From a virus, in the IMG/VR virus record IMGVR_UViG_3300047333_000258, positions 1 to 21,511 of that record: a DNA stretch of 21,511 nucleotides. The stretch is one strand, 5' to 3'. Position numbers and translations under genes: made by a program. This document shows, in pieces, positions 7,805 through 21,384 of the stretch. A model generated the notes under the pieces. That model was not told the DNA's origin and searched no databases. It saw nothing but the letters and a program-made list of their open reading frames with translations. Position 1 is the first letter of the stretch. Every line of letters begins with the position of its first letter.

Positions 7805-8257
7805 GTGAGCAACAGCGTCACTGAAAACGATCCTGCCCAGCAATACGTCAGCACGCCGCTGAGCGATGACGAGAAGGCTAATATTCGGCGCTTCTGCGGT
7901 TATCCCGCTTATGGCGCCGGGCCGTCCGGCTTTCAGGGATGGCGGTTTTTCCAGGCTTACGGGCTGATGGAATACCGGCTGGGTGTGCAGGCGGATGGAA
8001 CGCCGAATTTGGCGCCGGCTGAATTGTCGATCCTGCGTCAATATCTGGCTGCGCTTTATACGCTTGAGGCGGCGATTCCAGGGGCTGGTGCAAATCTCGA
8101 TACGGAGTCGGCCTCGGTCTGGGTGCATAATGCGAACGAGGTTTCCGATAGAACCGCTTTGTTTGATCAGTGGTGCCGGCGGCTTTGTCAATTTCTAGGG
8201 CTCCCGGCGGGGCCTGGCCTATCCGGCGGCGGCAATAGTGTCGATCTGGTGGTGTAA
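7805..8257 (+). CDS. putative head-tail connector (adaptor) protein
   Basis: This 150-residue protein starts at GTG 7805, with AGGAG nine bases upstream. It lies directly after the major capsid gene, where the adaptor that docks on the portal is usually encoded. The first part (LSDDEKANIRRFCGYPAYG) and the later helix (LAPAELSILRQYLAALYTLEAAIPGAG), with an acidic N-terminus and a helical core, are consistent with the small helical fold of adaptors. I do not recognise a specific family. Its stop overlaps the next start by one base (TAATG). The call is based on position and predicted fold. Confidence 0.45.
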   Translation: MSNSVTENDPAQQYVSTPLSDDEKANIRRFCGYPAYGAGPSGFQGWRFFQAYGLMEYRLGVQADGTPNLAPAELSILRQYLAALYTLEAAIPGAGANLDTESASVWVHNANEVSDRTALFDQWCRRLCQFLGLPAGPGLSGGGNSVDLVV

Positions 8258-8901
8258 TGGTGAGCGGCGCGGTGATTGCCGCAAAAATCAATTATGGGCT
8301 GGGTATTTCGGGATCCAGGGCTGGGTTTCCGATGCAGTGGTACCGGCCGGCAGGGACGGGACCGGTTGTTGCGCCCGGGAATTTATACGGCACTGTTAAC
8401 GCCATTGTTTCGCCAGCAAATAATTTTGTTGCGGCGGCCGGCGCATGGGGAAAAGGCGACCGGTTTGGCGCGTTCGACGCGTCGGCGTTTTTGGCCGGTG
8501 ATTATATCGTGGGAAGCGACACGCTTTTTTTGGCGGAGATTGTGCCGGGCGCGGCTGCGGTTCGGCTGGTGCTTTGCAATTCGGTTTTTATCTGGTCGAA
8601 GACGAGTGACCCGCCGCCGGGGCCTGGGTTTCGGCCTGGGGTGCGGGTGGCGACGCCGGTGGTGACGGGATGGCCGGGATGGCTGCAACCTTCGGACCGA
8701 AAGTCGCCGGCTGAGATGCATCTGCCGGGCGCGGTTGAAATGCCCAGCGTGGCGGTGTTTTTGCCGGCCTCGTTGCCTGGCCAGGTGTTGCGGGGGGACC
8801 AGTTGCAGACCGGAGATGTTTTGCCGGTGACCTATACGGTGGAGAGCGCGATTTATTCGCCGAATGGCTGGCAGGTCTCCGCGATGCGGGCCGGCGCGTG
8901 A
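8257..8901 (+). CDS. putative neck or head-closure protein
   Basis: The 214-residue protein starts at ATG 8257, which overlaps the upstream stop by one base. It is mostly beta in appearance. It has a middle stretch (FLAGDYIVGSDTLFLAEIVPG, then VRLVLCNSVFIWSK) that suggests a small beta-barrel, as in head-closure (stopper) proteins. A Pro/Gly-rich linker follows (PPPGPGFRPGVRVATP). Gene order (capsid, adaptor, this gene, coiled coil, terminator) fits a closure role. No family is recognised, so a minor tail or head decoration protein is possible. Confidence 0.35.
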   Translation: MVSGAVIAAKINYGLGISGSRAGFPMQWYRPAGTGPVVAPGNLYGTVNAIVSPANNFVAAAGAWGKGDRFGAFDASAFLAGDYIVGSDTLFLAEIVPGAAAVRLVLCNSVFIWSKTSDPPPGPGFRPGVRVATPVVTGWPGWLQPSDRKSPAEMHLPGAVEMPSVAVFLPASLPGQVLRGDQLQTGDVLPVTYTVESAIYSPNGWQVSAMRAGA

Positions 8902-8917
8902 CAATAGGGGAAATTGG

Positions 8918-9589
8918 ATGATGCCGCCAAAGGCCAGCGCCTTGTTAACCGCCGCGATCGCGCATGAAGAGATTCAGAAACGCGCGATGGAGGCGAAGGC
9001 TCGGGAAGCCGACGCCGCCAAGGCAGGATGCGGCGAGCTGGTTGCGCGCGCCGCTGCCGGCGCCGAGGTAGACGCTGCGGCCCTGATGCAGGCGCAGGAC
9101 GATGCGCGCGTTGCTTTGGTTGGGGCTGAAATTGCCGCCGCTATTTACAAGGGTGCCGAGAAACGCAGGTGGGAGGCGGAGATTTCCGCCTGGTTCGAGC
9201 AGGCCGCGCAGCTTGCAAATGCTGTGGAACGGCGTCTGGATGAAAGGTTTGCGGCGGCTGCGGAGGTGGATTCACGTCTGGCCGCGTTGAACGGCGCGGT
9301 GACGCGCTTCAACGAAGCGGGGCAGGGGTTCTCGCAGGCTAAAATTGCCGCGGCGCATTTTACCGCTGAGCGCGAATTGCGGATGGCGAATAATCCGGTT
9401 CTTCGGATGATGCCTGCGGGTACCCATCCAAAGGCCACGAACCCTTATAATGCCGAAATTCGGCGGGTTGGCGCCATTGTATTTGATGCCGGGGGCAGCC
9501 TGGAACGGCCAGCGCCGATTGAAAGCCTGGTGCAGCGTGAGGCGTTTTTATGGGGGCGGATGCCGGCGAAGAAGGGGTTGAAATCTTGA
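8918..9589 (+). CDS. helical coiled-coil phage protein of unknown function
   Basis: The protein has 223 residues from ATG 8918, seven bases after AGGGG; a second ATG follows at once. An upstream frame reaching back to 8864 overlaps the preceding gene and is less likely. Most of the protein is Ala/Glu/Arg-rich and helical (HEEIQKRAMEAKAREADAAK, AAIYKGAEKRRWEAEIS, VERRLDERFAAAAEVDSRL), so it probably forms coiled coils. The last third is less helical and ends in a basic LWGRMPAKKGLKS tail. It sits among neck genes. I know no family; a scaffold, neck-whisker or internal head protein are all possible. Confidence 0.55.
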   Translation: MMPPKASALLTAAIAHEEIQKRAMEAKAREADAAKAGCGELVARAAAGAEVDAAALMQAQDDARVALVGAEIAAAIYKGAEKRRWEAEISAWFEQAAQLANAVERRLDERFAAAAEVDSRLAALNGAVTRFNEAGQGFSQAKIAAAHFTAERELRMANNPVLRMMPAGTHPKATNPYNAEIRRVGAIVFDAGGSLERPAPIESLVQREAFLWGRMPAKKGLKS

Positions 9590-9654
9590 ACCGTCATCGC
9601 GCGTCCGCCATCGCGGCAATTTTGCAAACCAGCCGCGGGACCGGCGCATAAAGG

Positions 9655-10635
9655 ATGGCCACGATCGATGACGTTGAACAGGGCGTGTGCAGCGCCTTGG
9701 CGGGGGTATTGTTTCCGGGGCAGGCCTATCTGCCCGGAGCGGTGGCGACCTGCACTATGCCCTGGAATGGGGCGATTGGCGCGCCAAGCTATTCGATGCA
9801 GGCAAAGCTTTATGTTGGCGAGCCGGTAACGGCCGGCCTTGAGGCGGATATTCTGGCGGGCGTTTCCAATATTGGTGTGATGCGAGTGGCGGGAGCGACC
9901 CGCGATATCACCCGGTATAGCCCGTACTGGACGCAGATAAGTTCATGCATGCCGACCCTGTTGGCGGTGCTGGGCGATGGCGCCGTGACCTTTGGCGGGG
10001 TGGCCGGCGCGGGGCAGGTGGTGGGCGTGACGGCGGGCGGGACTTGCTATGCCTACCGGACCGCCGCGACCGATAACCCGGCGACGGTGGCGGCGGCGTT
10101 TGCGAGCTTTATTCCCGCCGCGGTGGCTGCGGGCGCCGTGCTGACGGCGGCTGCAATCGAAGCGGTGAATGTTGTCGCGGATCAGACGGCGTTTTGGCAG
10201 ACCGGGCAGAATGAAACGCAGTTGCAGGTTGCGATCATCGCGGTGCCGTTTGCCGGCGCCGATGGGCCGTTGGTGCGGGCGGCGCTGACGCGGGCGGTGT
10301 ACGCCGTGGAATCCGCGATGCGGCCCAATGGCAGCCTGACCCGGTTTATCGGTCTTGCCGATGGCACGACCGCGCAGATCATGGGGTCGGATGAACGCGA
10401 TGACGATACGGTGCGGCGCGACGATATCTGGCGCCGCTGGATAACGTTTCGACTGAATTACGATGTTGGCATCAGCCAGGTGCAACCCGCGGTGCTGGCC
10501 CCGTTGATTGCGCTGGGAACAAATTCAGCGCGGATCCAATGGGTTGGGAACGGTGCGGCGGTGAGCGGAATTCTTACCGATGGCGCCGGCAATGTTCTGA
10601 CCGATGCGAGCGGCGATCTGATCGGAGTTTACTAA
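9655..10635 (+). CDS. putative tail terminator or tail-completion protein
   Basis: The 326-residue protein lies between the neck genes and the tail cassette. Its C-terminal part has a DDDTVRRDDIWRRWITFRL stretch followed by a beta-like NYDVGISQVQ segment, which resembles terminator or completion proteins that cap the tail and contact the neck. The N-terminal region is a beta/Gly-rich domain. The ATG has AAGG directly adjacent, which is too close; GGGA (9637-9640) at about 14 bases is the other candidate site, so the start is uncertain. The stop abuts the ATG of the next gene. The terminator role is inferred from position and a weak pattern. Confidence 0.4.
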   Translation: MATIDDVEQGVCSALAGVLFPGQAYLPGAVATCTMPWNGAIGAPSYSMQAKLYVGEPVTAGLEADILAGVSNIGVMRVAGATRDITRYSPYWTQISSCMPTLLAVLGDGAVTFGGVAGAGQVVGVTAGGTCYAYRTAATDNPATVAAAFASFIPAAVAAGAVLTAAAIEAVNVVADQTAFWQTGQNETQLQVAIIAVPFAGADGPLVRAALTRAVYAVESAMRPNGSLTRFIGLADGTTAQIMGSDERDDDTVRRDDIWRRWITFRLNYDVGISQVQPAVLAPLIALGTNSARIQWVGNGAAVSGILTDGAGNVLTDASGDLIGVY

Positions 10636-11415
10636 ATGAGCGGTGCCATTACGATTACCGCGCCAGGGGCCGCAACGGTCGGCGTGGCGTTCTCGGTTGC
10701 CGGCACGGTCAGCCCCGCCGGCGATATTGTGCAGGTGCAGTTGGATAGGCAGAACAGCACACTGCCAACCGGACCGTGGGATGCCGCGACGACGGCTGCG
10801 GGCACGTTTGCCGGGGTGGTTGAGATTGTTGCACCCGGGACCTGGTATGTTTGGGGCTATGATCCGATCAGCGGGGCGTCTGCGGTCTCCTCGGCCATTT
10901 CCGTACCCTCTTCGGCGTTGAATTATGTCGAGGGCATTCCTGTATCGACTTCGATTGCCGCATCATTGCTGGGCGGCAGCGCGGCGGGCGAAACGCCGGA
11001 CGAGCTGACGACCGCGGCGGCTGCGGCCGACACCGACACGGCGCTGGTGGCGCAGGGCGGTAAAACGGTGTTTGCGCAGCCATTCTCGGCGATTTGGACG
11101 TGGATTCAGGGGCATTTGCCGGGCTATCTGCTGCCGCAAGTCACGATAGCGGCGGCCGGGACGGTGCAGCTTGATAATTCGGCGCATAATCAGCGGCTGC
11201 TGCTGGTAACCGCGAGCGGCGTGACGCTGACGCCGCTTATAAGTTCAATGGGACCTGGATTTGCCTGCGATGTCATAAATGCCTCCGGATCCGGCGTTGC
11301 GCTTGCGGGCATGACGACGAATACGGGTGCGGGCAGCATCGCCGCCGGCGGGATTGCGCGCATCTTGGCAGCAACGGCGCCGGGCGGATCGCTTACCGTG
11401 TACGCGAAATTATGA
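10636..11415 (+). CDS. Ig-like beta-domain tail or decoration protein
   Basis: This 259-residue protein starts at ATG 10636, directly after the previous stop, with GGAG eight bases upstream. Residues about 2-90 form a beta-sandwich domain of Ig-like type: AITITAP, then AGTVSPA, an internal hydrophobic segment and PGTWYVW. The same pattern recurs in the protein encoded at 13112-13918. A linker rich in Ala/Thr/Asp (about 113-137) leads to a Trp-rich helix (FSAIWTWIQGHLPGYLLPQ). A C-terminal repeat-like beta region follows (VTLTPLISSMGPGFACDVINASG). Ig-like domains in phage virions often bind surface glycans or decorate the particle. The stop overlaps the next start (ATGA). Confidence 0.55.
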   Translation: MSGAITITAPGAATVGVAFSVAGTVSPAGDIVQVQLDRQNSTLPTGPWDAATTAAGTFAGVVEIVAPGTWYVWGYDPISGASAVSSAISVPSSALNYVEGIPVSTSIAASLLGGSAAGETPDELTTAAAAADTDTALVAQGGKTVFAQPFSAIWTWIQGHLPGYLLPQVTIAAAGTVQLDNSAHNQRLLLVTASGVTLTPLISSMGPGFACDVINASGSGVALAGMTTNTGAGSIAAGGIARILAATAPGGSLTVYAKL

Positions 11416-12818
11416 CCACCACCGACATCAAAAGCCGGGGCAGGCTGGTGCTGGCGGCGCCTGGCATAGCGCTGCAAAGTGGCACGGCTGCGAGCGGCGG
11501 CGGCGGCGGTAGCGGCGGCAGTGGGCTTGGCAATATCACCTTGCTGAGTGGACCGGGCCAGAGCAATGCGGGCTATGCCGAGACGCAGGATGGCGCATTG
11601 CTGGCGATGGCGCAGGCAATTTCATTCTACCTGCAGGGCGCCGGCATGCCTTCCGTTTTGACGGCCTGGGTTAATCCAGGCCAGGCCGGCACGGAAGTCT
11701 CCGGCATTGGGGTTATGGAGATTGTAACGCCGGCGTTATATACCGGAGCGTTTTTGGCGAATTCGGCCGGAGCATCGTTTTCCGCGGCGACCGCGGCGGT
11801 GGCGGGGCTCGGTACCTGCGGTGCCGGGTATTCCGACTTTGCCGCCGCCCTCAGCGAAGCGCAAATCGGCCAGGTGAATGCCCTGGTTTCGTATTGGGGC
11901 GAGAATGATAGCCTGGAATACGGGCCTGCGGATAAAGCGGTTTACAAGGCGGCGATCGTCAACCTGCTGGCGCAGATACGCGCCATGCTTGGTAGAACTG
12001 CGGCCGAACTGCCGATGCTTTTCTTCGGGCCGCCTTATGGGCTGTTGCCGAATTATATTAGCTACCCACCAACGTTGCGCGAGGTATGGGCCGAGCTCGA
12101 TGCCGATCCGGCGCAGAATTTTCGTTGGGTTGTCAGGCAGACCTATGACACGATTTCGCGCAATGAGTCGTGGAATGCCAGCACGGGCGTCGCCAGCGGG
12201 GGCAATACCGATGGCGGGCACCGGAGTGCCACGGATAATGTGATATTGTTCAAACGCGCGGCATTGCCGGCGGCGCGGGCGATCTTGGCGGCTAACGGCT
12301 TGTCAGAGGCGCTGATTCCCTCTGCTCTGGGTGTGGGGACCGGCCCGGCAATTACCGGGGCTACGCTGAGCGGCGAGGCTTTGACGATTACCGTTACCCA
12401 TGATGGGGGTGACGATCTTGTCGTGCCGCTGCTGGCCGCCCAAGGCGTTGGTTTCTCGCTGATGGATGGCGGGAATACGGCGTCGCCGGGGAATATCATT
12501 CGGGCCATATCCTGTGCTCGGGTGGATCCGACACATCTACTTGTCACCTTGGCGAGCCAGCCCGCGAGTCCCCATACGCAATGCCGGCTATTATATCCAT
12601 GGGCGGGAGAATATTGGACCGTGCAACCCGATACCGAGATTGGCCGGGGTTGCGCGGTAACCGATAATTTCGCAACCATTGTGAAGCCGGCCGGATACGA
12701 TATCAACGCCGCGCTTGGCAATGGCTGGGGCGCCGATATGCCGCTTGGAACGCCGGTAACGGTTACGGGAACCGGGCCTTCGGCGGTCGCGACATTTGGA
12801 ATCGCGCTCTCCGCTTGA
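11412..12818 (+). CDS. SGNH-type esterase with Gly/Ser linker (tail-associated)
   Basis: The 468-residue protein has a short N-terminal segment (1-28), a Gly/Ser linker (GGGGGSGGSG, 29-38), then an SGNH hydrolase domain. Block I is GPGQSNAG with the nucleophile Ser51. A GEND motif (162-165) supplies a likely oxyanion residue. The DGGH motif (Asp266, His269) gives the Asp-His pair. This is the layout of sialate/polysaccharide O-acetylesterase-like enzymes. A C-terminal beta domain (about 310-468) may bind glycans. It should remove acyl groups, for example acetyl, from a host surface polysaccharide. The start overlaps the previous stop (ATGA). There is no signal peptide, as expected for a virion enzyme. 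Substrate and position on the particle are inferred. Confidence 0.7.
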   Translation: MTTTDIKSRGRLVLAAPGIALQSGTAASGGGGGSGGSGLGNITLLSGPGQSNAGYAETQDGALLAMAQAISFYLQGAGMPSVLTAWVNPGQAGTEVSGIGVMEIVTPALYTGAFLANSAGASFSAATAAVAGLGTCGAGYSDFAAALSEAQIGQVNALVSYWGENDSLEYGPADKAVYKAAIVNLLAQIRAMLGRTAAELPMLFFGPPYGLLPNYISYPPTLREVWAELDADPAQNFRWVVRQTYDTISRNESWNASTGVASGGNTDGGHRSATDNVILFKRAALPAARAILAANGLSEALIPSALGVGTGPAITGATLSGEALTITVTHDGGDDLVVPLLAAQGVGFSLMDGGNTASPGNIIRAISCARVDPTHLLVTLASQPASPHTQCRLLYPWAGEYWTVQPDTEIGRGCAVTDNFATIVKPAGYDINAALGNGWGADMPLGTPVTVTGTGPSAVATFGIALSA

Positions 12819-12828
12819 TAGGACGCCC

Positions 12829-13101
12829 ATGTTAGACGAAGAGGTGAATTTGACCGTGCTCAAATCGGAAGTCGCCCGATTGAGTGTGGATTTTTACGCA
12901 CATGCCAAAAAGGTGGACGAGTATATTCTGAAGATTATGGAATTCATGTCTGAGGAAATGGGCGCCCGAAAAGAGCGTGAAAAAAAGATTTCCGAACGGG
13001 CGGCTTCCATTGAAATGACGTGGACGAAAGTGATGGCGCTGGCTGCGATCCTCAGCGCAATCACATCGCTTCCGACGATTATTCGTATCATCGATCGATA
13101 G
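12829..13101 (+). CDS. small coiled-coil protein with C-terminal membrane segment
   Basis: The protein has 90 residues from ATG 12829, just after the esterase stop; an in-frame start at 12796 would overlap the esterase. Residues about 3-65 are charged and coiled-coil-like (LKSEVARLSVDFYAHAKKV, ARKEREKKISERAA). Residues about 67-86 (VMALAAILSAITSLPTIIRI) form one likely membrane helix, followed by a short basic end. This resembles XhlA-type phage membrane proteins and small lysis accessory proteins, but no endolysin is nearby in the window. Alternatives are a tail-associated membrane-contact protein or a superinfection-exclusion factor. Confidence 0.55.
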   Translation: MLDEEVNLTVLKSEVARLSVDFYAHAKKVDEYILKIMEFMSEEMGARKEREKKISERAASIEMTWTKVMALAAILSAITSLPTIIRIIDR

Positions 13102-13111
13102 AGGAATTTGC

Positions 13112-13918
13112 ATGGCATTTGCTCCAACACCGCCGCGCACAAGCGTGCCGGCCCAGCTTCTATCCATAACATCTATAACCTCAACGGCGGTTCAACAATC
13201 TGGCGGCACGTCGGGGGGGTCGGGATCGATCACCATTTCCAACGCGCCAACGACGGGTACCGCTGGGACCGCAATTTCGCTCGCCGGGACCGTTTCGCCG
13301 GCGGCGAGCGCGGTGCGGATTGGTCTTTCCGGTTCTGCAAGCGTTGCGCCGGCCAGTTGGAGCAATGCGACGGTTTCCGGCTTGGGTTGGACAGGAACGC
13401 TCACGCCAACGGCCGCCGGCACATATTATATCTGGGCTGAGCAAACGGCGGCGCCGTCCATTCAGGCGATATCCGGCGCCCTGGCGGTCTCGGCGGCGAG
13501 TGGCGGAACGGGATTATCCTATAGCCTCATTGCGGGGTCTGGAAATGCGTCGCTGACCGGTTTGACATTGACGACCACGACATCCGGATCGGCCCCGGCG
13601 GTGGATTGGACGACGAGTATTGTTCACGGATCAACCGATGTGGCGCCGAATGTGAACCTATCCACGGTCGGCAATATAACGGCGGGCAAATTCTGGTTCG
13701 ATACGACGAATACCGGTGTCGCGCCGGGAACCTTTGGCAACGCGCTGTTCAACGGAAATGCGGTCGCGTTTTACGCTTTCGCCGATGGTTTCGGTACCCC
13801 GACCTGCGCGCCGGCCGCACCGAGCACCGCGGGCACATATTATGGCAAATACGCCTTCTATAACAGCACTGGCACGCTGCTGGGCGTTTTTACCACCAAT
13901 GCCATTACCGTTACCTAA
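13112..13918 (+). CDS. second Ig-like beta-domain protein (tail or decoration)
   Basis: The 268-residue protein starts at ATG 13112, six bases after GAGGA. A short N-terminal segment (1-29) leads to a Gly/Ser linker (SGGTSGGSG). An Ig-like domain follows (SITIS, AGTVSPA, AGTYYIW) that closely parallels residues 2-90 of the protein at 10636. A C-terminal beta region (about 130-268) is Thr/Gly-rich and ends in VFTTNAITVT. The linker-plus-beta layout is shared with the esterase two genes upstream. The protein is probably a virion surface or tail-fibre-like adhesin component. The exact role is unknown. Confidence 0.55.
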   Translation: MAFAPTPPRTSVPAQLLSITSITSTAVQQSGGTSGGSGSITISNAPTTGTAGTAISLAGTVSPAASAVRIGLSGSASVAPASWSNATVSGLGWTGTLTPTAAGTYYIWAEQTAAPSIQAISGALAVSAASGGTGLSYSLIAGSGNASLTGLTLTTTTSGSAPAVDWTTSIVHGSTDVAPNVNLSTVGNITAGKFWFDTTNTGVAPGTFGNALFNGNAVAFYAFADGFGTPTCAPAAPSTAGTYYGKYAFYNSTGTLLGVFTTNAITVT

Positions 13919-13932
13919 TAAGGGATATCTAA

Positions 13933-15480
13933 ATGACAATTGTACAACAGGGTGCGATCAACACGACCGCGCTGATTGTTCCCGATCTGTACGTGCAGAT
14001 CGTTCCGCCACAAAACCTGCTGCTGAACGGTGTGCCAACGGATGTGCTTGGCATGGTGGGTACGGCACCGTGGGGGCCGGTTAATTCACCGGTCATTGTC
14101 GGCAGCATGAGCGACTTTGCCGCATCCTTTGGTACATTGATTAACCGCAAGCACGACCTGGGGACCCAGGTTGCCATTGCGGTCTTGCAAGGTGCTTCGA
14201 ATTTCCGATTAGTGCGGGTGACCGACGGGACGGATACCGCCGCCAGTGTTGTGCTGCAGAGCACGTGCATGACTGTCACCGGAAAATACACCGGCAGCGC
14301 CGGCAACGGTATTGTTATCACCCTGGCCGCCGGTTCGGCTGCGAATAGTTATCAAGCGGTCGTAACCCTGCCGGGTGCGACGCCGGAAATATACAATAAC
14401 GTTGGCGGTACCGGAAATGCATTCTGGATTAATCTGGCGGCGGCGATCAATAGCGGCAATAGCGCGTTGCGCGGACCCTCGCAGTTGGTGACCGCGATTG
14501 CCGGTATCGGTACGGCGGCCCCTGCTTTGACTAGCTACGCGCTTGCTGGTGGCACTGATGGCGTAGCCACCATTACTACCGCATCGTTGATTGGTGTTGA
14601 TATTGCGCCGCGCACCGGCATGTATGCGCTGCGTGGCCAGGGTTGCGGGATTGGGGTGTTATCGGATCTTGACGACTCCACCGCCTGGACGACCCAGGTT
14701 GCCTTTGGGCTGTCCGAGGGCGTTTACATGGTGATGACCGGGCCGGCCGGCGATAACATCGCGAACGCCGTTTCCACAAAAGCCAGCGCCGGCCTGGATA
14801 GCTATGCGGGCAAGCTGATGTTCGGGGATTGGATATTCTGGTCGGATCCGGTGAATGCGGTAACGCGGCTTTGTTCGCCGGCCGCTTTTGCTGCGGGGCG
14901 GCTGGCCAATCTGTCGCCGGAGCAATCGTCTCTCAACAAGCAGATTTATGGTGTCGTTTCCAGCCAGAAGTCAGGCGCTCCGGGTTCGCCGACCTATTCC
15001 ACTTATGCAACTGCCGATCTTGCGGCACTGCTTGGCGCCGGCATTGATGTGATCTCAAATCCGCAACCCGGGGGCGCTTACTGGGGTGTTCGCGGTGGAC
15101 ATAATACGTCCTCCAACGAAGTGATCGATGGGGATAATTATACGCGGTTGACAAACTATATTGCCGCAACACTTTCATCCGGCATGGGCCAATATGTGGG
15201 GCAGTTGGTTAATTCAACGCTGTTTCAGAACATCAAGGCCACGCTTCTGTCATTCCTGAGCGGAATGCTTTCTCAGGGGCTGCTCGGGAGCACGGATGGA
15301 AGGTTGCCTTTTGCGGTCGTGTGCGATGCTTCCAACAATCCGCTGGGCCGGACGGCGCTAGGTTATGTGCAGGCCGACGTGCAGGTTCAATACCAGGCCA
15401 TCAACGAGAAATTCATTGTTAACGTGCAGGGTGGACAGTCCGTAGTGGTCTCGCAGACGGCCACGATTCCGCAACAGTAA
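13933..15480 (+). CDS. contractile tail sheath protein
   Basis: This 515-residue protein forms the contractile outer layer of the tail; its presence makes the phage a myovirus. It matches the Mu gpL / P2 FI-like sheath pattern. An N-terminal stretch (VPDLYVQIVPPQNLL, then TDVLGMVGTAPWGPVN) is the typical opening. The middle has a variable beta domain (about 110-190). The C-terminal core carries LTNYIAATLSSGMGQYVGQLVN, VQADVQVQYQAINEKFIVNVQGGQSVVV and an ending that extends as a strand to neighbouring subunits. The length is normal. It is followed by the tube gene, the invariant order in contractile tails. Confidence 0.9.
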   Translation: MTIVQQGAINTTALIVPDLYVQIVPPQNLLLNGVPTDVLGMVGTAPWGPVNSPVIVGSMSDFAASFGTLINRKHDLGTQVAIAVLQGASNFRLVRVTDGTDTAASVVLQSTCMTVTGKYTGSAGNGIVITLAAGSAANSYQAVVTLPGATPEIYNNVGGTGNAFWINLAAAINSGNSALRGPSQLVTAIAGIGTAAPALTSYALAGGTDGVATITTASLIGVDIAPRTGMYALRGQGCGIGVLSDLDDSTAWTTQVAFGLSEGVYMVMTGPAGDNIANAVSTKASAGLDSYAGKLMFGDWIFWSDPVNAVTRLCSPAAFAAGRLANLSPEQSSLNKQIYGVVSSQKSGAPGSPTYSTYATADLAALLGAGIDVISNPQPGGAYWGVRGGHNTSSNEVIDGDNYTRLTNYIAATLSSGMGQYVGQLVNSTLFQNIKATLLSFLSGMLSQGLLGSTDGRLPFAVVCDASNNPLGRTALGYVQADVQVQYQAINEKFIVNVQGGQSVVVSQTATIPQQ

Positions 15481-15558: not shown

Positions 15559-15981
15559 ATGTCATCATATACCATAGGTGAGGATGTTCGTGCGCAGATT
15601 ATAGGGCCTTACGGTCCGATCACCGCGCCTCAGCAGACCGTGATATCGATTGCCCCAAATCATACTATCCAGGCATTTCAGGATCTGACCGGCACCACCA
15701 ATTCGCGCACGGTGGTTAAAGGCGTTTCCGGCAAAATAACGTTTACCCGAACCAATTCGGACCTCGAAAATCTTGCGGCGCAGATGAGCCAGAATTGGAA
15801 GGCCGGCGTTCCGATCCCGGGAGGAAGCTTTACCTACACGATAAGCGAACTCAATGGTACCGAAACGACGGTTCACCTTAGCCCGGTTTCATGGATGATT
15901 ACCAAAATTGGCGATGCAACGCCAGGAAAGCCGGTTATGCAGGAACTCACCTTTGTTGGCGATGGGTATCAAACCGTATGA
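15559..15981 (+). CDS. tail tube protein
   Basis: This 140-residue protein follows the sheath and forms the rigid inner tube through which DNA passes. It is beta-rich, with strands such as GVSGKITFTRT and TETTVHLSPVSWMIT, and ends in VMQELTFVGDGY, like the Mu gpM / P2 FII-type tube proteins. The length is right for the family. AGGAA stands six bases before the ATG. The stop overlaps the next start (ATGA), so the chaperone is probably translated by coupling. Confidence 0.85.
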   Translation: MSSYTIGEDVRAQIIGPYGPITAPQQTVISIAPNHTIQAFQDLTGTTNSRTVVKGVSGKITFTRTNSDLENLAAQMSQNWKAGVPIPGGSFTYTISELNGTETTVHLSPVSWMITKIGDATPGKPVMQELTFVGDGYQTV

Positions 15982-16538
15982 TCGAGATTACGCTGCGCGA
16001 TGGCCGTGTGTTGGGGGTAGAAGGCGTAACGCCGGCGGAATCCATGAAGTTGGCGGAGGGAACGCGTGAGCTCAGCGGCAATCGCGGATGGTGTTCGATG
16101 GCGATTATTGTCGCGTCCATCCGCAGTATCGATGGCATTCCCCGGCCGTTTCCGACGCATAAGAAGCATATCGAGTCGCTGTTGAAGGATCTGAACGAGA
16201 ATGACCTGGCGGCAATCCGCGCCGCCTATAAGAATGTGGAAACGGATCCGGTGACGATCGAGTTTAGAAAGCTATCTCCGTTCGAGCGCCTTAAAATATA
16301 TGAATTGGCCGGGGAGTTTAACGATGTGCGTGGTTGGGTGGGTCCCGCCACGATTGCGGCCTCGGTACGAAAAATCGACGAGAAGGCGATCGCCTTTCCC
16401 GAAACCCAGGCCGATCTTATTGCGCTTGTGACTCAGCTTGGAAATGCCGGCTTTGCGGCCGCGAACGTTCGGATGAACGAGAGTTGGGACGCGGCGGATG
16501 CCGAAGCGAGGTCTTTGGAGACCGCGGCAAAAAACTGA
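15978..16538 (+). CDS. tail assembly chaperone (zero-frame product)
   Basis: The 186-residue protein has ATG 15978 overlapping the tube stop. It opens with a small beta element (MIEITLRDGRVLGVEG). A helical body follows with RSIDGIPRPFPTHKKHIESLL and LKDLNENDLAAI segments, typical of the Mu gp41/lambda gpG-type chaperones that coat the tape measure during assembly. It ends at a TGA (16536-16538) placed directly after A AAA AAC, so some ribosomes should slip back one base and add a second domain (see the extension). The two products at a fixed ratio are a known feature of phage tail assembly. Confidence 0.8.
   Translation: MIEITLRDGRVLGVEGVTPAESMKLAEGTRELSGNRGWCSMAIIVASIRSIDGIPRPFPTHKKHIESLLKDLNENDLAAIRAAYKNVETDPVTIEFRKLSPFERLKIYELAGEFNDVRGWVGPATIAASVRKIDEKAIAFPETQADLIALVTQLGNAGFAAANVRMNESWDAADAEARSLETAAKN
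16529..16535 (+). promoter_or_regulatory. -1 programmed frameshift slippery heptamer
   Basis: A AAA AAC is in the exact X XXY YYZ register relative to the chaperone frame (GCA AAA AAC TGA). The zero-frame stop follows at once, and the -1 frame stays open for 62 codons. A clear downstream stimulatory stem was not seen. Confidence 0.85.
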
Positions 16539-16723
16539 GTAGCCGGGCGTTATTTCAGGACGCAGTCCTTATGGCGATGCGTGGAGCGGCTTCCAGCATG
16601 GAGGCGGCACTGTCCATGTCTGACGTTTGGCGCTCGGCGACAATTTTGGCGATCAGGGAAATTGAGGCGCAACATCGCCGGGACATGGTTACGAGCATTG
16701 TTGAGGCGTTGAGGGGACATTGA
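16535..16723 (+). CDS. -1 frame extension of the tail assembly chaperone
   Basis: This frame is read after slippage at 16529-16535 and adds 62 codons, giving a fusion of about 248 residues from 15978. The extension (LSSRALFQDAVLMAMRGAAS, then helical segments, ending EALRGH) is helical and Arg-rich, like the T part of gpGT that binds the tape measure. No useful start lies near its beginning, so it is best seen as an extension, not a separate gene. An internal ATG at 16571 exists but has no good ribosome binding site. Confidence 0.75.
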   Translation: MSSRALFQDAVLMAMRGAASSMEAALSMSDVWRSATILAIREIEAQHRRDMVTSIVEALRGH

Positions 16724-16785: not shown

Positions 16786-18246
16786 ATGATCGGTTATGAT
16801 ATCGGAGCTCGCTTCGAACTGAATGATGAAGCGGCCGGACCGTTTGGCTACGCCAACAGCGATCATTCCAACCATTTCGAGAATCTGCTGCCGGCTGATA
16901 CGCTGATGGATAGGATGCCGGAGATTGGCCCGCTGCACATATCTGGCGGTGTTGCTGAACATGATGCTGACATGAATGCGGCATCGGAACTGTTGGCCGT
17001 TATACCGCGAGGTTTGGGAACGGGCGGATTGCCAGAGGGCGAGGTGCCGTCGGATATTGGACGAGATGGAATGGGTGCGCCAGTTGGCGACGCGATAGCG
17101 GCGTTGTTCCATCCAAACCGCGGTGGGTTGTTGGCTGATATGCCCTCGGGCGAGCAGGCTTCAGCTTCGATAGGCATGCCAATCCAAAAATCTGACTTTG
17201 AGAGCGACACCCGGCTCTCCGGGAGGGATGGGGAGGTTCCGGAAGTTGGGAGCAGCCAGCGCCGCTTTTTTGTTCCGGACGTTCCTGGATTGGCGAAGGG
17301 CCAGGCTGATACTGAATATGCCTATCCGCATTTGCCCAAAACCTTTGAAAGCGCCACGGAATCTGATCCAATTCTAAATGCCATGGAGCCGTTTGATCAT
17401 CGGGGCGACCGAGAGACGTTTTATGATGCGCCGGCAACGAACAACGCCAGCGGCAGATCGCGTGAGAGTGGCGTGTTCGAGCCCGCGGGCGTAGCCGGGG
17501 ACGACGCCACCGAATCAGATAATGGCGAGAGCCAAGGCGCGGATATGCTCGACGAGGCACCATATGATCGGATTATTCAGGCCTTTGGAGACCTGTTTCC
17601 GGATCGTCCGGCAGGAGGCGACGCGGCAACGGCAGAAGATGAGGCGGATTTTGGCGTTGCAATTGCCGGGCTCAATGCTCGCTTTGATCGGCTAAGCGGA
17701 GAGAGGTCGGCGCGCACTGACGGGGTGGCGCCCGCGCAGCAGGGAGACACCTGGCACATGGCAGGGGTCGATTTACCTGATGAGCCAGAAGGCGAGATTG
17801 GTGAGGCGTTGAGATTGCAGCCAGACTCGCGCAATTTTTTGTCCACTAACGAAACATCCGACGCAGCGGGTATAACGGGCATCGCCGGAATGTGGGAGAT
17901 GATGCGCAATGCTGAGCGGTTCTTGCCGAAACAGGGCATCGTGGCTCGACAGAGCGCCGAGGTTGCCACGAGGGGGCTGAGCGATGCCGCGGCGCCCCGT
18001 CCAAAGGGCTTGCCGGGCGAATGGCTGGCGAGAGGCAACGTTAATGAGGTCGATCCCGAGGCCCTGAATATGCCGGCAAGTAGAGGAAATTCCGGAGGGG
18101 AACGGAGCGGTCCTTCCGGGCATAAGAATGACCCGATTTATATGGTGGCGGTGAACCAGGTAAACGGGACATTGATGCCCACCGTACCAACTGCAGGGAC
18201 CGGCACGCGCAGCCCAGCGATGCCGGGACAAAGGAATCTACCGTGA
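16786..18246 (+). CDS. acidic, low-complexity protein in the tape-measure position
   Basis: This 486-residue protein starts at ATG 16786, ten bases after AAGGAG. It lies between the tail chaperone and the baseplate proteins, where contractile-tail phages normally encode the tape measure. It does not look like one: there are no long coiled coils and no membrane segments. The sequence is rich in Gly, Pro, Asp, Glu and Ala, poor in Lys, and looks largely disordered. A short helical stretch (GMWEMMRNAERFLP) near 366-379 is the best-ordered part. It may still set tail length, or it may be a specialised substitute or an unrelated tail protein. The stop overlaps the next start (GTGA). No family is recognised. 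Confidence 0.5.
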   Translation: MIGYDIGARFELNDEAAGPFGYANSDHSNHFENLLPADTLMDRMPEIGPLHISGGVAEHDADMNAASELLAVIPRGLGTGGLPEGEVPSDIGRDGMGAPVGDAIAALFHPNRGGLLADMPSGEQASASIGMPIQKSDFESDTRLSGRDGEVPEVGSSQRRFFVPDVPGLAKGQADTEYAYPHLPKTFESATESDPILNAMEPFDHRGDRETFYDAPATNNASGRSRESGVFEPAGVAGDDATESDNGESQGADMLDEAPYDRIIQAFGDLFPDRPAGGDAATAEDEADFGVAIAGLNARFDRLSGERSARTDGVAPAQQGDTWHMAGVDLPDEPEGEIGEALRLQPDSRNFLSTNETSDAAGITGIAGMWEMMRNAERFLPKQGIVARQSAEVATRGLSDAAAPRPKGLPGEWLARGNVNEVDPEALNMPASRGNSGGERSGPSGHKNDPIYMVAVNQVNGTLMPTVPTAGTGTRSPAMPGQRNLP

Positions 18247-19082
18247 CGGTGAATTCGGATATTCTATCGGCGATTTCTGCGGCCGGCCAGTTGTTCGCAG
18301 GCTATGGGACGGTGACGCTTGGCCCGGTGCAATTTAGCGGAATGAGCTTGCCGACCGCCATTCCGATTGGCGGTGGACAGTTGATGTCCGTGCAAAAACT
18401 GCCGGGTGGCGCGCGAATTATCGACGTTATGGCGCAGGATGATGATGATATTGGATGGGCCGGTTATCTTGACGGTCAGTTTGCGACGGAGATGGCGCAG
18501 GTTTTAGACAAGATTCGGCGCTCGGGCCAAGCGGTGACATTGGCTTGGGATGTGTTTTCCTACCAAGTGATTGTTTGCAAGTTTTCTTGCCAAATTCGCC
18601 ATGCGCCGATGCCGTATAGGATATTGTGCACGGTGATTGCCGACAACACGCTGGTTGCGGGCACAACTGCCGTAAATATGACGTTGCAGGTGACGGCCGA
18701 CCTTATCGATGGCAACCCGGCGGGAGCGCTTGGTGCCGTAAGTCAAGGTATCGTCGGGTCAAGCGTTGCGAATGCCGCTGCAGCCGCTTCGGCGACGAAT
18801 GCTACGACGGTGGGGAGTGCCGCATATACCGCGGCGGTGAGCGCCGTGAACGTCGCCGCGACCTCGTTGCAGACAGCGTCAGTAGCGACGGATGCCACGT
18901 TGGCGCCATTGGGAGCGTCGCTTTCGTCTCTGACACAGGCGGCGGGTACGGGGTTGGATACATTTGGATTTTCCGCCAGTGTCAACAATGCGTTGGCGGC
19001 TTGCGGCGATGCGGCCAATCTCAGTGCCGCCCAAGGCTATGTTGTTCGTGCCCAACAGAATTTGCTGAGAGCAAGCGCATGA
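18243..19082 (+). CDS. hub-adjacent tail protein (gpN / circulation-protein-like N-domain)
   Basis: The 279-residue protein starts at GTG 18243, which overlaps the upstream stop; AGGAA stands six bases before it. Residues about 20-140 form a recognisable phage tail domain: VTLGPVQFSGMSLP, GGGQLMSVQKLPGGARIIDVMAQDDDDIGWAGYL, and a later TLAWDVFSYQVIVCKF. This domain occurs in proteins that link the tail tube end, baseplate hub and tape measure in Mu/P2-like tails. The remainder (about 170-279) is Ala/Thr-rich and helical, and could bind the tape measure or hub. The stop overlaps the next start (ATGA). The exact partner is inferred from gene order. Confidence 0.6.
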   Translation: MTVNSDILSAISAAGQLFAGYGTVTLGPVQFSGMSLPTAIPIGGGQLMSVQKLPGGARIIDVMAQDDDDIGWAGYLDGQFATEMAQVLDKIRRSGQAVTLAWDVFSYQVIVCKFSCQIRHAPMPYRILCTVIADNTLVAGTTAVNMTLQVTADLIDGNPAGALGAVSQGIVGSSVANAAAAASATNATTVGSAAYTAAVSAVNVAATSLQTASVATDATLAPLGASLSSLTQAAGTGLDTFGFSASVNNALAACGDAANLSAAQGYVVRAQQNLLRASA

Positions 19083-19270: not shown

Positions 19271-19329
19271 CTTGTAAAAGGCTCAACGATCGCGCCGAGG
19301 CCGCGGCTCTATTGGGTCGCCAGCGATGA
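19267..19329 (+). CDS. possible 20-residue coupling mini-ORF
   Basis: GTG 19267 overlaps the stop of the X-like gene (GTGA), and its own TGA overlaps the ATG of the hub gene (ATGA). It therefore bridges a 55-base gap between two neighbours without leaving an untranslated base. The 20 residues are basic and Ala-rich. It may serve to carry ribosomes to the hub start, which lacks a strong ribosome binding site. Confidence 0.3.
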   Translation: MTCKRLNDRAEAAALLGRQR

Positions 19330-20441
19330 GTGAGAGCATGGTGAACTATCCAAGGTTCCTTGTGACTGTCAATGGCACGGTTTTGGAGGGGGTAAGCAAA
19401 GTAAGCGTTAAGCAGGCCGGCGCGTTCCAGATTGGTGGGTTCTGCTTGAAGAAAGGCTTTATTCCAGAAGATGAATTTCCGGCTTTTTGGTGGGCCGCGA
19501 CGACCAACAAGACGATTTTGGTCACAATCGAATTATCGCTTGACGGCAGCACATTCTTTCCGATGATGACCGGCAACGTTGACAATCATATTTATGATGC
19601 CATTGAGAATACAATTTCAATCGTAGGCCGGGATCTCGCGGCCGGTATGATCGACACGAGAATTGTGACCACGTTCAGAAACCTGACGGCGAGCGAGATC
19701 GCAACGCAGTTCGCGGCTGAGCATGGTTTACAGGCGATGGTGACACCGACCACCACGATCGTTGGACGCATCTACGACGTTGACCACGATGAGACGAGCA
19801 GCGGCGATTTCTCTCAAATGACGAATGAGTGGGACTTGCTTTGCAGGTTAGGCGAGGCGGAAGGGATTGTTCCCTACGTTTCGGGTACAACGCTTTATTT
19901 CAATCCACCCAGCGGCAACCCTCCGGTTTACCCCGTTGAGCTTACACGAGATTTTAATGGACTGCTCGTTGCGGGGGTCACGGAGTTATTGCTGGAGCGG
20001 CATATGACATACGCTCAAGACGTGGTCGTTAAGGTAAAATCCTGGAGCAGCCGTAAAAAGACTGCGATTATTTCCACGGTGCGGACCAAGACCGTTGATG
20101 AGGGCGCGGTCACGCGGGTTAAATTACCAGTCTATTTATATGAGGTGCCGAACCTGAGCCAAGCCCAGTGCTTAGCCAAGGCTCAGCAACTCGCATTGGA
20201 TATCTCCCGGCATGAACGGTATGTAAGGGTGATCATTCCATCGCTGGCATTGATGAGTCCGCAAACGTTTATACCGGTGTCCGGTACCGGTACGGATTAC
20301 GACTCAACCTATTTTCCGCTGACCATCACCTATGAGGTGACGACCGAACGCGGTGCGTCAACCTTTATTGAGGCGACGACTTCATCACCATTAGCGTTGT
20401 ACGATGACGCCACCGGGCAGCGATTAGGGGATTTGCAATGA
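19326..20441 (+). CDS. baseplate hub protein (gpD / Mu gp44-like)
   Basis: The 371-residue protein is likely the trimeric hub at the centre of the baseplate. The N-terminal beta domain (FLVTVNGTVLEGVSKVSV, then FEATTNK-like strands) and the following FRNLTASEIATQFAAEHGL segment resemble the late-control gpD / T4 gp27 family. It lies between the X-like protein and the spike gene, as in Mu. The start is ATG 19326, which overlaps a mini-ORF stop; ATG 19338 is an alternative. Its stop overlaps the spike start (ATGA). Confidence 0.8.
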   Translation: MSESMVNYPRFLVTVNGTVLEGVSKVSVKQAGAFQIGGFCLKKGFIPEDEFPAFWWAATTNKTILVTIELSLDGSTFFPMMTGNVDNHIYDAIENTISIVGRDLAAGMIDTRIVTTFRNLTASEIATQFAAEHGLQAMVTPTTTIVGRIYDVDHDETSSGDFSQMTNEWDLLCRLGEAEGIVPYVSGTTLYFNPPSGNPPVYPVELTRDFNGLLVAGVTELLLERHMTYAQDVVVKVKSWSSRKKTAIISTVRTKTVDEGAVTRVKLPVYLYEVPNLSQAQCLAKAQQLALDISRHERYVRVIIPSLALMSPQTFIPVSGTGTDYDSTYFPLTITYEVTTERGASTFIEATTSSPLALYDDATGQRLGDLQ

Positions 20442-21022
20442 GTTTCACCGACGCACAACGCCGGGAGATCGCTGCGGTCGCTTCCCTTTCCGCCGCCAAC
20501 AGGTCGGGCATTGTGACCGGCTGGCAAGCAATCCCACCGATGGCAAAAGTGCAGATCATGCCGTGGGATCCGGCGGATGGAACGGCTCCGGAAACGGGAT
20601 GGATCCCGGTTTTGTCGAGCGCGGCCGGGTTTCTTGGTAATGGTTGGCGCATATTGATCCCGCCCATGATTGGTGCTCAGGCATTTATCCAGCCAGAGGT
20701 TGGCAATGCACAGAATTGGGTCATCACAGGATTTTATTTCTCCGACGTGGATCCGGCGCCGGTCGGCGCGCAGCCGGGAGAAATTATGATAGAGAATGCG
20801 AATGGAGCGCAGGTCTATTTACAAGCCGACGGCGTTATCACGCTGGTGACACCGACGCTTAACGTCGGGGCGCCGGACGGAGGCGACGCAACTGTAAACA
20901 TTACCGGTTCGCTCAATGTGACCCGTGAAACGACGACCGCCGACATCGCGTTCACGCCGCATACCCATCGCTATATTCCGGGTGGTAACCCCGAAACACA
21001 AACCGGCGAACCGCAAGGATAA
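20438..21022 (+). CDS. baseplate spike protein (gpV / Mu gp45-like)
   Basis: The 194-residue protein starts at ATG 20438, overlapping the hub stop, with AGGGGA upstream. An OB-fold-like N-terminal part (SGIVTGWQAIPPMAKVQI, then GNGWRILIPPMIGAQAFI, NWVITGFYFSD) is followed by a triple-stranded beta-helix-like region (GEIMIENANGAQVYLQADG, then VTPTLNV, ATVNITGSLNV). The tip carries FTPHTHRY with His175 and His177. In P2 and related spikes an HxH motif binds iron at the membrane-piercing apex. The protein should form the cell-puncturing needle. Confidence 0.85.
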   Translation: MSFTDAQRREIAAVASLSAANRSGIVTGWQAIPPMAKVQIMPWDPADGTAPETGWIPVLSSAAGFLGNGWRILIPPMIGAQAFIQPEVGNAQNWVITGFYFSDVDPAPVGAQPGEIMIENANGAQVYLQADGVITLVTPTLNVGAPDGGDATVNITGSLNVTRETTTADIAFTPHTHRYIPGGNPETQTGEPQG

Positions 21023-21024
21023 AA

Positions 21025-21384
21025 ATGGGCGATATTTCGCATGTTTACGGCGCTGATATTGATCTGAGCGCCGGTGGGGATTTTCTGTACGTCGCAGATG
21101 AAACACAGCAGCATGTTATTAAGCGGCTACTGACGGCAGCCGGCGCCGACATTTGGAACCTGACGTATGGCGCCGGGCTAGGACAATTTGTTGGACGGCC
21201 TGTCAGTTTACCCGCGATAACGAATGCAATTCTCTCGCAGATATTTAAAGAGGAGACGGTTGCGCAATTACCGAACCCTACCGTTTCCGCAGTTGAGAAC
21301 GGAACAATAATCACCGTTACCGTAACGTATACCGACGCTACAACCGGACAAAGCCAGGTTTTGACACTTCCGCTGGGGGGTTAA
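21025..21384 (+). CDS. baseplate wedge protein (Mu gp46 / GPW-gp25-like)
   Basis: The 119-residue protein starts at ATG 21025 with AAGGA five bases upstream. It has the GPW/gp25-like pattern: GADIDLSAGGDFLYVADETQQHVIKRLLTA is interrupted by a typical turn, then TYGAGLGQFVGRPV, and a C-terminal beta strand (TIITVTVTYTDA). It follows the spike and precedes a J-like gene, the same order as Mu gp45-gp46-gp47. Confidence 0.8.
   Translation: MGDISHVYGADIDLSAGGDFLYVADETQQHVIKRLLTAAGADIWNLTYGAGLGQFVGRPVSLPAITNAILSQIFKEETVAQLPNPTVSAVENGTIITVTVTYTDATTGQSQVLTLPLGG

Follow-up and report, generated by a model that had tools for sequence, protein, structure and literature searches.

A shortened, predicted disordered protein in the tape-measure slot of a contractile-tailed Acetobacteraceae element: a candidate tether in place of a ruler

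Introduction

Long phage tails are generally considered to depend on a tape measure for a fixed length. Before assembly, this protein requires chaperones, a task that normally falls to the G/GT arrangement. Hydrophobic or membrane segments are common in these proteins, if not universal. For TP901-1, infectivity was shown to require the N-terminal 154 and the C-terminal 60 residues of the tape measure as well as one hydrophobic region. Deletion of the repeats of this protein shortens the tail in proportion, and alanines can take the place of one 11-aa repeat (PMC5099701). The tape measure of diffocin has its C-terminus on the spike and its N-terminus at the collar, and forms a coiled-coil trimer of about 139 nm (PMC11329794).

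From the Acetobacteraceae, particles of the source strain of the Komagataeibacter phage phiKX1 (tape measure of 742 aa) were reported with a tail of 98.9 nm (PMC8566455), and those of Ameyamaea chiangmaiensis NBRC 103196 with a tail of 15 nm (PMC8566455, Table 1). In a peat-moss virome, phage-like contigs matched Acetobacteraceae genomes, and defective prophages were suggested (PMC12142844). The literature on phages without a tape measure yielded only a paper on a Bacillus plasmid-prophage, in which the role of tape measure was assigned to a 2161-aa helical protein, along with a review of T6SS and a paper on giant viruses. Here, a contractile-tailed element is described in which the slot of the tape measure is filled by a shorter, acidic and apparently disordered protein.

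Results

The window is a 21.5-kb fragment from IMG/VR (IMGVR_UViG_3300047333_000258, 21,511 nucleotides) that carries terminase, portal, scaffold, capsid and head-completion genes, followed by the genes of a contractile tail (Table 1). The chaperone gene (15978-16538) ends in GCA AAA AAC TGA and thus contains the canonical -1 slippery site A AAA AAC. Of the three forms of this locus distinguished below (F, S and M; the window is of type S), the heptamer was identical in 8/8 S and 6/6 M loci, and also in L015 and L017; across most of the clade, the site reads A AAA AAC or G GGA AAC. The -1 frame was open for an extension of 61-63 aa in every S and M locus. S, M and F loci all have a homologue of the tube protein in the corresponding position, the N-like gene occurred in all three forms as well, and homologues of the G part (dN/dS of 0.08-0.10) were present in S, M and most F loci.

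Two further ORFs inside the structural cluster had no Pfam match, namely 11412-12818, a possible SGNH hydrolase by the look of its sequence, and 1714-2673, likewise a possible glycosyltransferase. Another ORF (8864-9589; 241 aa) looks rich in helices, lies between two neck genes, was found in S-type contigs only and had no Pfam match. It was considered as a replacement ruler and is unlikely to be a general answer, because M lost the tape-measure body without such an ORF.

Table 1. Features of the tail region of the window (positions in the window).
Feature	Position	Strand	Basis
Contractile tail sheath	13933..15480	+	PHROG phrog_23 tail sheath, E=1.5e-45
Tail tube protein	15559..15981	+	follows sheath; phrog_12993 (function unknown), E=8e-15
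Tail assembly chaperone, G part	15978..16538	+	phrog_20383 (function unknown), E=1e-18
-1 slippery heptamer A AAA AAC	16529..16535	+	just 5' of the chaperone stop
GT frameshift extension, 62 aa	16536..16723	+	-1 frame
Putative reduced tape-measure gene	16786..18246	+	486 aa, ATG start, acidic, predicted disordered
Putative N-terminal anchor MIGYDIGARFELNDEAAGPFGYANSDH	16786..16866	+	hhalign to classic tape-measure N-terminus, E=3e-4
Predicted disordered, fast-evolving, rewritten middle	16906..18093	+	not alignable to classic body
Short conserved amphipathic patch AGMWEMMRNAERFLPKQ	17881..17937	+	conservation in 8 homologues and predicted helix
Putative C-terminal anchor GPSGHKNDPIYMVAVNQ..GTLMPTV..MPGQRNLP	18109..18243	+	hhalign to classic C-terminus, E=4e-6
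N-like hub-side tail protein	18243..19082	+	phrog_21362, E=1.6e-34; far border of the slot
Baseplate hub (gpD-like)	19326..20441	+	phrog_52, E=2e-14; phrog_177
Spike (gpV-like)	20438..21022	+	position; weak Pfam Phage_base_V match, E=0.016
gp25-like baseplate wedge	21025..21384	+	phrog_120 and phrog_43, E=2e-6

The earlier note had described a disordered, acidic protein without long helices or membrane segments where the tape measure should be. Its ORF was recovered exactly (16786..18246, +, 486 aa), and since this is the only gene between the end of the GT extension at 16723 and the start of the N-like gene at 18243, the claim that it alone occupies the tape-measure slot holds. The codon log-odds were +0.104 per codon in its own frame, whereas the five alternative frames scored between -0.20 and -0.37. 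When the bases of its DNA were shuffled 2000 times, no stop-free run exceeded 277 codons, as compared to the 486 of the real gene, and homologous ORFs were present at eight S-type loci. The protein is indeed acidic, with a net charge of -41 and 16% D+E. A largely disordered chain was predicted both from composition (TOP-IDP, Uversky) and by AlphaFold2. The TOP-IDP score was 0.144, compared to 0.03-0.05 in the controls (sheath, hub and N-like protein), and 53% of the 51-residue windows fell on the unfolded side of the Uversky plot versus 1-21% in the classic tape measures of the clade. The AlphaFold2 model had a mean pLDDT of 32.8 with 474/486 residues below 50; this part of the disorder call uses a shallow alignment, and classic members, too, score low outside one domain. 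Membrane segments were lacking (best 19-residue hydropathy of 0.79), and so were long helices, with a longest run of 18 residues free of proline and glycine and a weak heptad signal in the coiled-coil check. In all S members, proline or glycine recurs at least every 13-25 residues, with no strong heptad pattern. The span of about 70 nm quoted for a fully helical chain is plain arithmetic (486 x 0.15 nm). The profile search against tape-measure families gave no direct Pfam or PHROG match for the slot protein.

Relatives were gathered via the neighbouring N-like gene, and in this first set the slot between GT and the N-like gene took three forms. In form F, the slot holds a classic tape measure (623-746 aa) with a Neck1/gpS-like gene upstream (L011, L013, L015, L017, phiKX1, L024 and L026; also L014, the contig of which starts inside the gene). 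Form S comprises acidic proteins of 465-540 aa, with 24-49% identity to the window protein, and form M basic proteins of 367-409 aa. The tape-measure identity of form F was given by matches of several members to PHROG tape-measure families and, by fold, by tape-measure models; a search of PDB folds with the classic form returned nothing significant. In the AlphaFold model of F, the N-terminus forms a helix of 75 residues and a helical domain covers about 252-512; S lacks both. The only named phages among the relatives were phiKX1/2 and, distantly, an Alicyclobacillus phage. In L018, the M-type slot gene (8231-9561) lies in two frames, owing to a genuine frameshift or to an error in sequencing.

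In the classic sister loci L011, L013, L014, L015 and L017, the slot gene likewise lies between G/GT and the N-like gene and encodes a homologous C-terminal motif. phiKX1 has its gene at the same slot position, although other genes intervene before the N-like gene: in this locus (L022), 9629-13869 holds unrelated genes, including one for a KilA-N protein, between tape measure and N-like gene. An IDAYEIGV-type N-terminal motif is common to the slot protein, the sister loci and phiKX1. In contrast to the slot protein of 486 aa, which lacks both, these classic forms (689-746 aa) have a helical body and a Neck1/gpS-like gene. The latter (e.g., L011 2189-2707 and L015 6095-6619) adjoins the F tape measure and was present in all classic loci tested. 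None of the S and M contigs has it, which looks like a joint loss with the body of the tape measure; it is also absent from part of a third group described below.

Both ends of the slot protein were related to classic tape measures by profile comparison. For S against F, 0/100 column-shuffled controls came close to the values of the N end (3e-4) or the C end (4e-6); with such controls, the comparison of M with F gave 2e-10 and 6e-5, respectively. The F-like start (IDAYEIGV / MIGYDIGARF) and the F-like end motif PxYxxxV...MPTxPT...PG are kept in S and M. Within the middle, the amphipathic patch has W370, M372, L380, P381 and K382 invariant across the eight homologues, and a short helix is predicted at 366-379.

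A full-length profile built from four full tape measures was run against the complete six-frame translations of the S contigs and of a whole 88-kb host contig. On the S contigs, the slot proteins were the sole matches at E<=1, with the best stretches at the C-terminal end and weaker ones at the N-terminal end. This six-frame search revealed no second tape measure in the S contigs, including the complete element from Rhodovastum, and a clear tape measure elsewhere, the possibility raised in the earlier note, appeared in none of the contigs of the S group. A tape-measure body hidden in another frame of the slot DNA was likewise rejected, as there was no six-frame match. The case for homology draws jointly on ends, position, chaperone and the series of reduced forms, and the S ends by themselves would be modest evidence. 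Judged by these features, the slot gene is a descendant of a tape-measure gene, and not an ordinary tape measure because the long helical or coiled-coil body is absent.

The two parts of the protein differ in their rates of evolution. In four S pairs, the middle had a dN/dS of 0.43-0.60, with upper confidence bounds of 0.66-0.90 and thus all below 1, as compared to 0-0.15 for the last 50 codons in four close pairs. The genes neighbouring the slot gene had values of 0.03-0.17. The difference between middle and end argues that the S slot protein is kept and that the sequence of its middle matters little.

In a tree of concatenated tail proteins, S was placed beside L014 (100/99 support), in which the F-type body and C-terminus are intact. 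Since this sister has a classic body, the body was lost on the S branch. S and M as a single event or clade was rejected (p-AU of 5e-98). A scan with the sheath added 78 loci, for which slot size was taken as the distance from the GT stop to the N start, a measure that is free of ORF calls. In this wider set, slot size ranged from more than 2700 nt to 22-90 nt. A third group combines an N-anchor of the F type (E=1e-14 to classic) with a Pro/Ala-rich linker and a C-anchor of its own, and in a fourth group only the C-anchor is left (E=1e-16 to that of the third group). Finally, eight further viral contigs and five chromosomes have no slot gene: the GT extension and the N-like gene are about 0-90 nt apart, and the other tail genes are still present; one of these contigs, of 26 kb, runs from terminase to endolysin with no tape measure. 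The classic tape-measure profile found no match on the contigs without a slot gene. The frameshift site was recognised in 7/8 of the viral loci without the gene, and G/GT retains its frameshift (G GGA AAC) in viral contigs (including L086, L053, L055, L083, L064 and L084) as well as in the chromosomal loci (L163, L165, L178, L179 and L177). In the wider tree, which was built quickly and has some weak branches, full tape measures were basal and also found in the S/M part. Reduction occurred three times or more, and the loci without the gene were nested inside a reduced group. On this tree and these slot sizes, the slot gene represents a step in an erosion that has recurred and that leads to the disappearance of the gene.

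The sheath was found in 132/299 Acetobacteraceae genomes. Among 47 chromosomal clusters with a tube gene, 39 had a reduced slot, five had none, three were unclassifiable and none was of full length, a short slot being scored as one with no ORF of at least 600 aa, with only part of such ORFs inspected individually. In four genomes (G239, G155, G202 and G298), the cluster lies at the same site beside Tim44-like, glycosyltransferase and HTH genes, and in three of the four also beside a K+ transporter, with flank identities of 58-94%; three have no slot gene and one has a short form. No integrase was seen in the clusters at conserved Acetobacteraceae sites. The Rhodovastum S element is complete, spans about 26 kb within the 88-kb host contig and directly borders host ABC-transporter and ParB-like/sulfate-permease genes. 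Head, packaging, tail and lysis genes are present in its ORF list, in which no integrase or replication gene was recognised. In two other S contigs, the lysozyme gene is followed by the same host gene, of the carboxymuconolactone-decarboxylase family. Thus, the clusters are probably domesticated, gene-transfer-agent-like elements. Since the S form itself was found in only 1/397 genomes, domestication is less well shown for S than for its relatives.

Discussion

The earlier note had left two possibilities, an unusual way of setting tail length or a new kind of tail protein. The former is favoured here; the latter does not fit, as both ends descend from the classic tape measure of the sister loci. 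We consider it about two-thirds probable (roughly 0.66) that the slot protein is a two-anchor tether which has replaced a rigid ruler in a domesticated, phage-derived, contractile-tailed element of Acetobacteraceae. The gene still encodes both ancestral ends and still follows a frameshifting chaperone, but the helical body (about 500 residues in the sister loci) has gone, as has the neighbouring Neck1-like gene. In this scheme, the rest is as follows. The C-terminal anchor would still seat on the hub and spike and nucleate tube growth, G/GT would still escort the chain, and the N-terminal anchor would still meet the head-proximal end. The middle would be a flexible tether and no longer a rigid helical ruler, and tail length would be set loosely, by the reach of the tether or by the assembly of tube and terminator itself. 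In a domesticated, gene-transfer-agent-like element, the need for a precisely measured tail may be relaxed, and in sister lineages the same erosion would proceed to full loss of the gene. Homology is the basis for the proposed anchoring of both ends. That the protein no longer acts as a ruler is inferred from its predicted disorder, rapid evolution and drifting length, and from relatives that have lost the gene entirely.

The analogy with TP901-1 and diffocin is the reason why the two anchors should still link the hub and the head-proximal end. As in TP901-1, the ends would be essential and the middle largely dispensable; in TP901-1, however, tail length scales with the repeat-containing middle, whereas the middle of the slot protein has apparently been rewritten as disordered by evolution. 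Diffocin is likewise a contractile machine, but its coiled coil has no clear counterpart in the slot protein. The 742 aa and 98.9 nm of phiKX1 fit a classic helical ruler for form F.

A true ruler of another kind, i.e., an extended disordered chain the contour length of which sets the tail, is an unlikely reading. Conserved ends and a length that stays within 465-540 aa in 8/8 S proteins despite 24-49% identity to the window protein would be expected of such a chain, which could be stretched inside the tube, and the Pro/Ala-rich linkers of the sister group would be naturally extended. However, close relatives with about 96% tube-protein identity differ in length (486 vs 540 aa), and the slot shrinks to 251 aa and to zero with the tube and sheath genes retained.

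That the gene is functionless and decaying on its way to loss appears quite improbable. Decay would agree with the complete loss in sister lineages and with the weak constraint on the middle, where dN/dS reaches 0.6 (0.95 for one pair of M), but the frame is intact in 8/8 S loci up to a dS of about 1.5, the C anchor is strongly constrained and the upper bound of dN/dS for the middle is below 1. We hold it to be very improbable that the protein is an ordinary tape measure that is disordered alone and becomes a helical bundle once inside the tube; the retained G/GT chaperone would suit such folding, but the spacing of proline and glycine (every 13-25 residues in all S members) and the lack of strong heptads do not, and the classic sister proteins have a predicted 75-residue helix. 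Replacement of the tape measure by an unrelated protein, e.g., a tube cargo, would agree with the lack of Pfam and PHROG profile matches and with the tape-measure-related effectors known from Streptomyces contractile injection systems (PMC11126660), but is scarcely credible given the homology of both ends to sister tape measures and the terminase, portal and capsid genes of the element.

The tether reading places the slot protein in elements that resemble the gene transfer agents of Alphaproteobacteria, which likewise have head, tail and lysis genes, no integrase seen and conserved chromosomal sites in relatives. RcGTA is of the siphovirus type; the clade described here differs by its contractile tail and its reduced or absent tape measure. 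More tentatively, and with a little less than even confidence, the clade may be a widespread, domesticated, DNA-packaging contractile family that has no ruler and has, depending on the member, a disordered tether between two anchors, a C anchor only or nothing in its place, with the chaperone and its frameshift kept. If the family has dispensed with the tape measure, tail length would be set without a ruler, and the chaperone would have a role beyond escorting the tape measure.

In this clade, nature has produced a graded set of deletions, with 746 residues at one end and none at the other, in which the sheath, tube and chaperone genes are conserved. It makes accessible to experiment which portions of a tape measure cannot be spared, how the growth of a contractile tail stops without one, and what the job of the G/GT chaperone is when no tape measure needs an escort. 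Should the elements prove to be gene transfer agents, the occurrence of a contractile type in so many Acetobacteraceae genomes would be notable.
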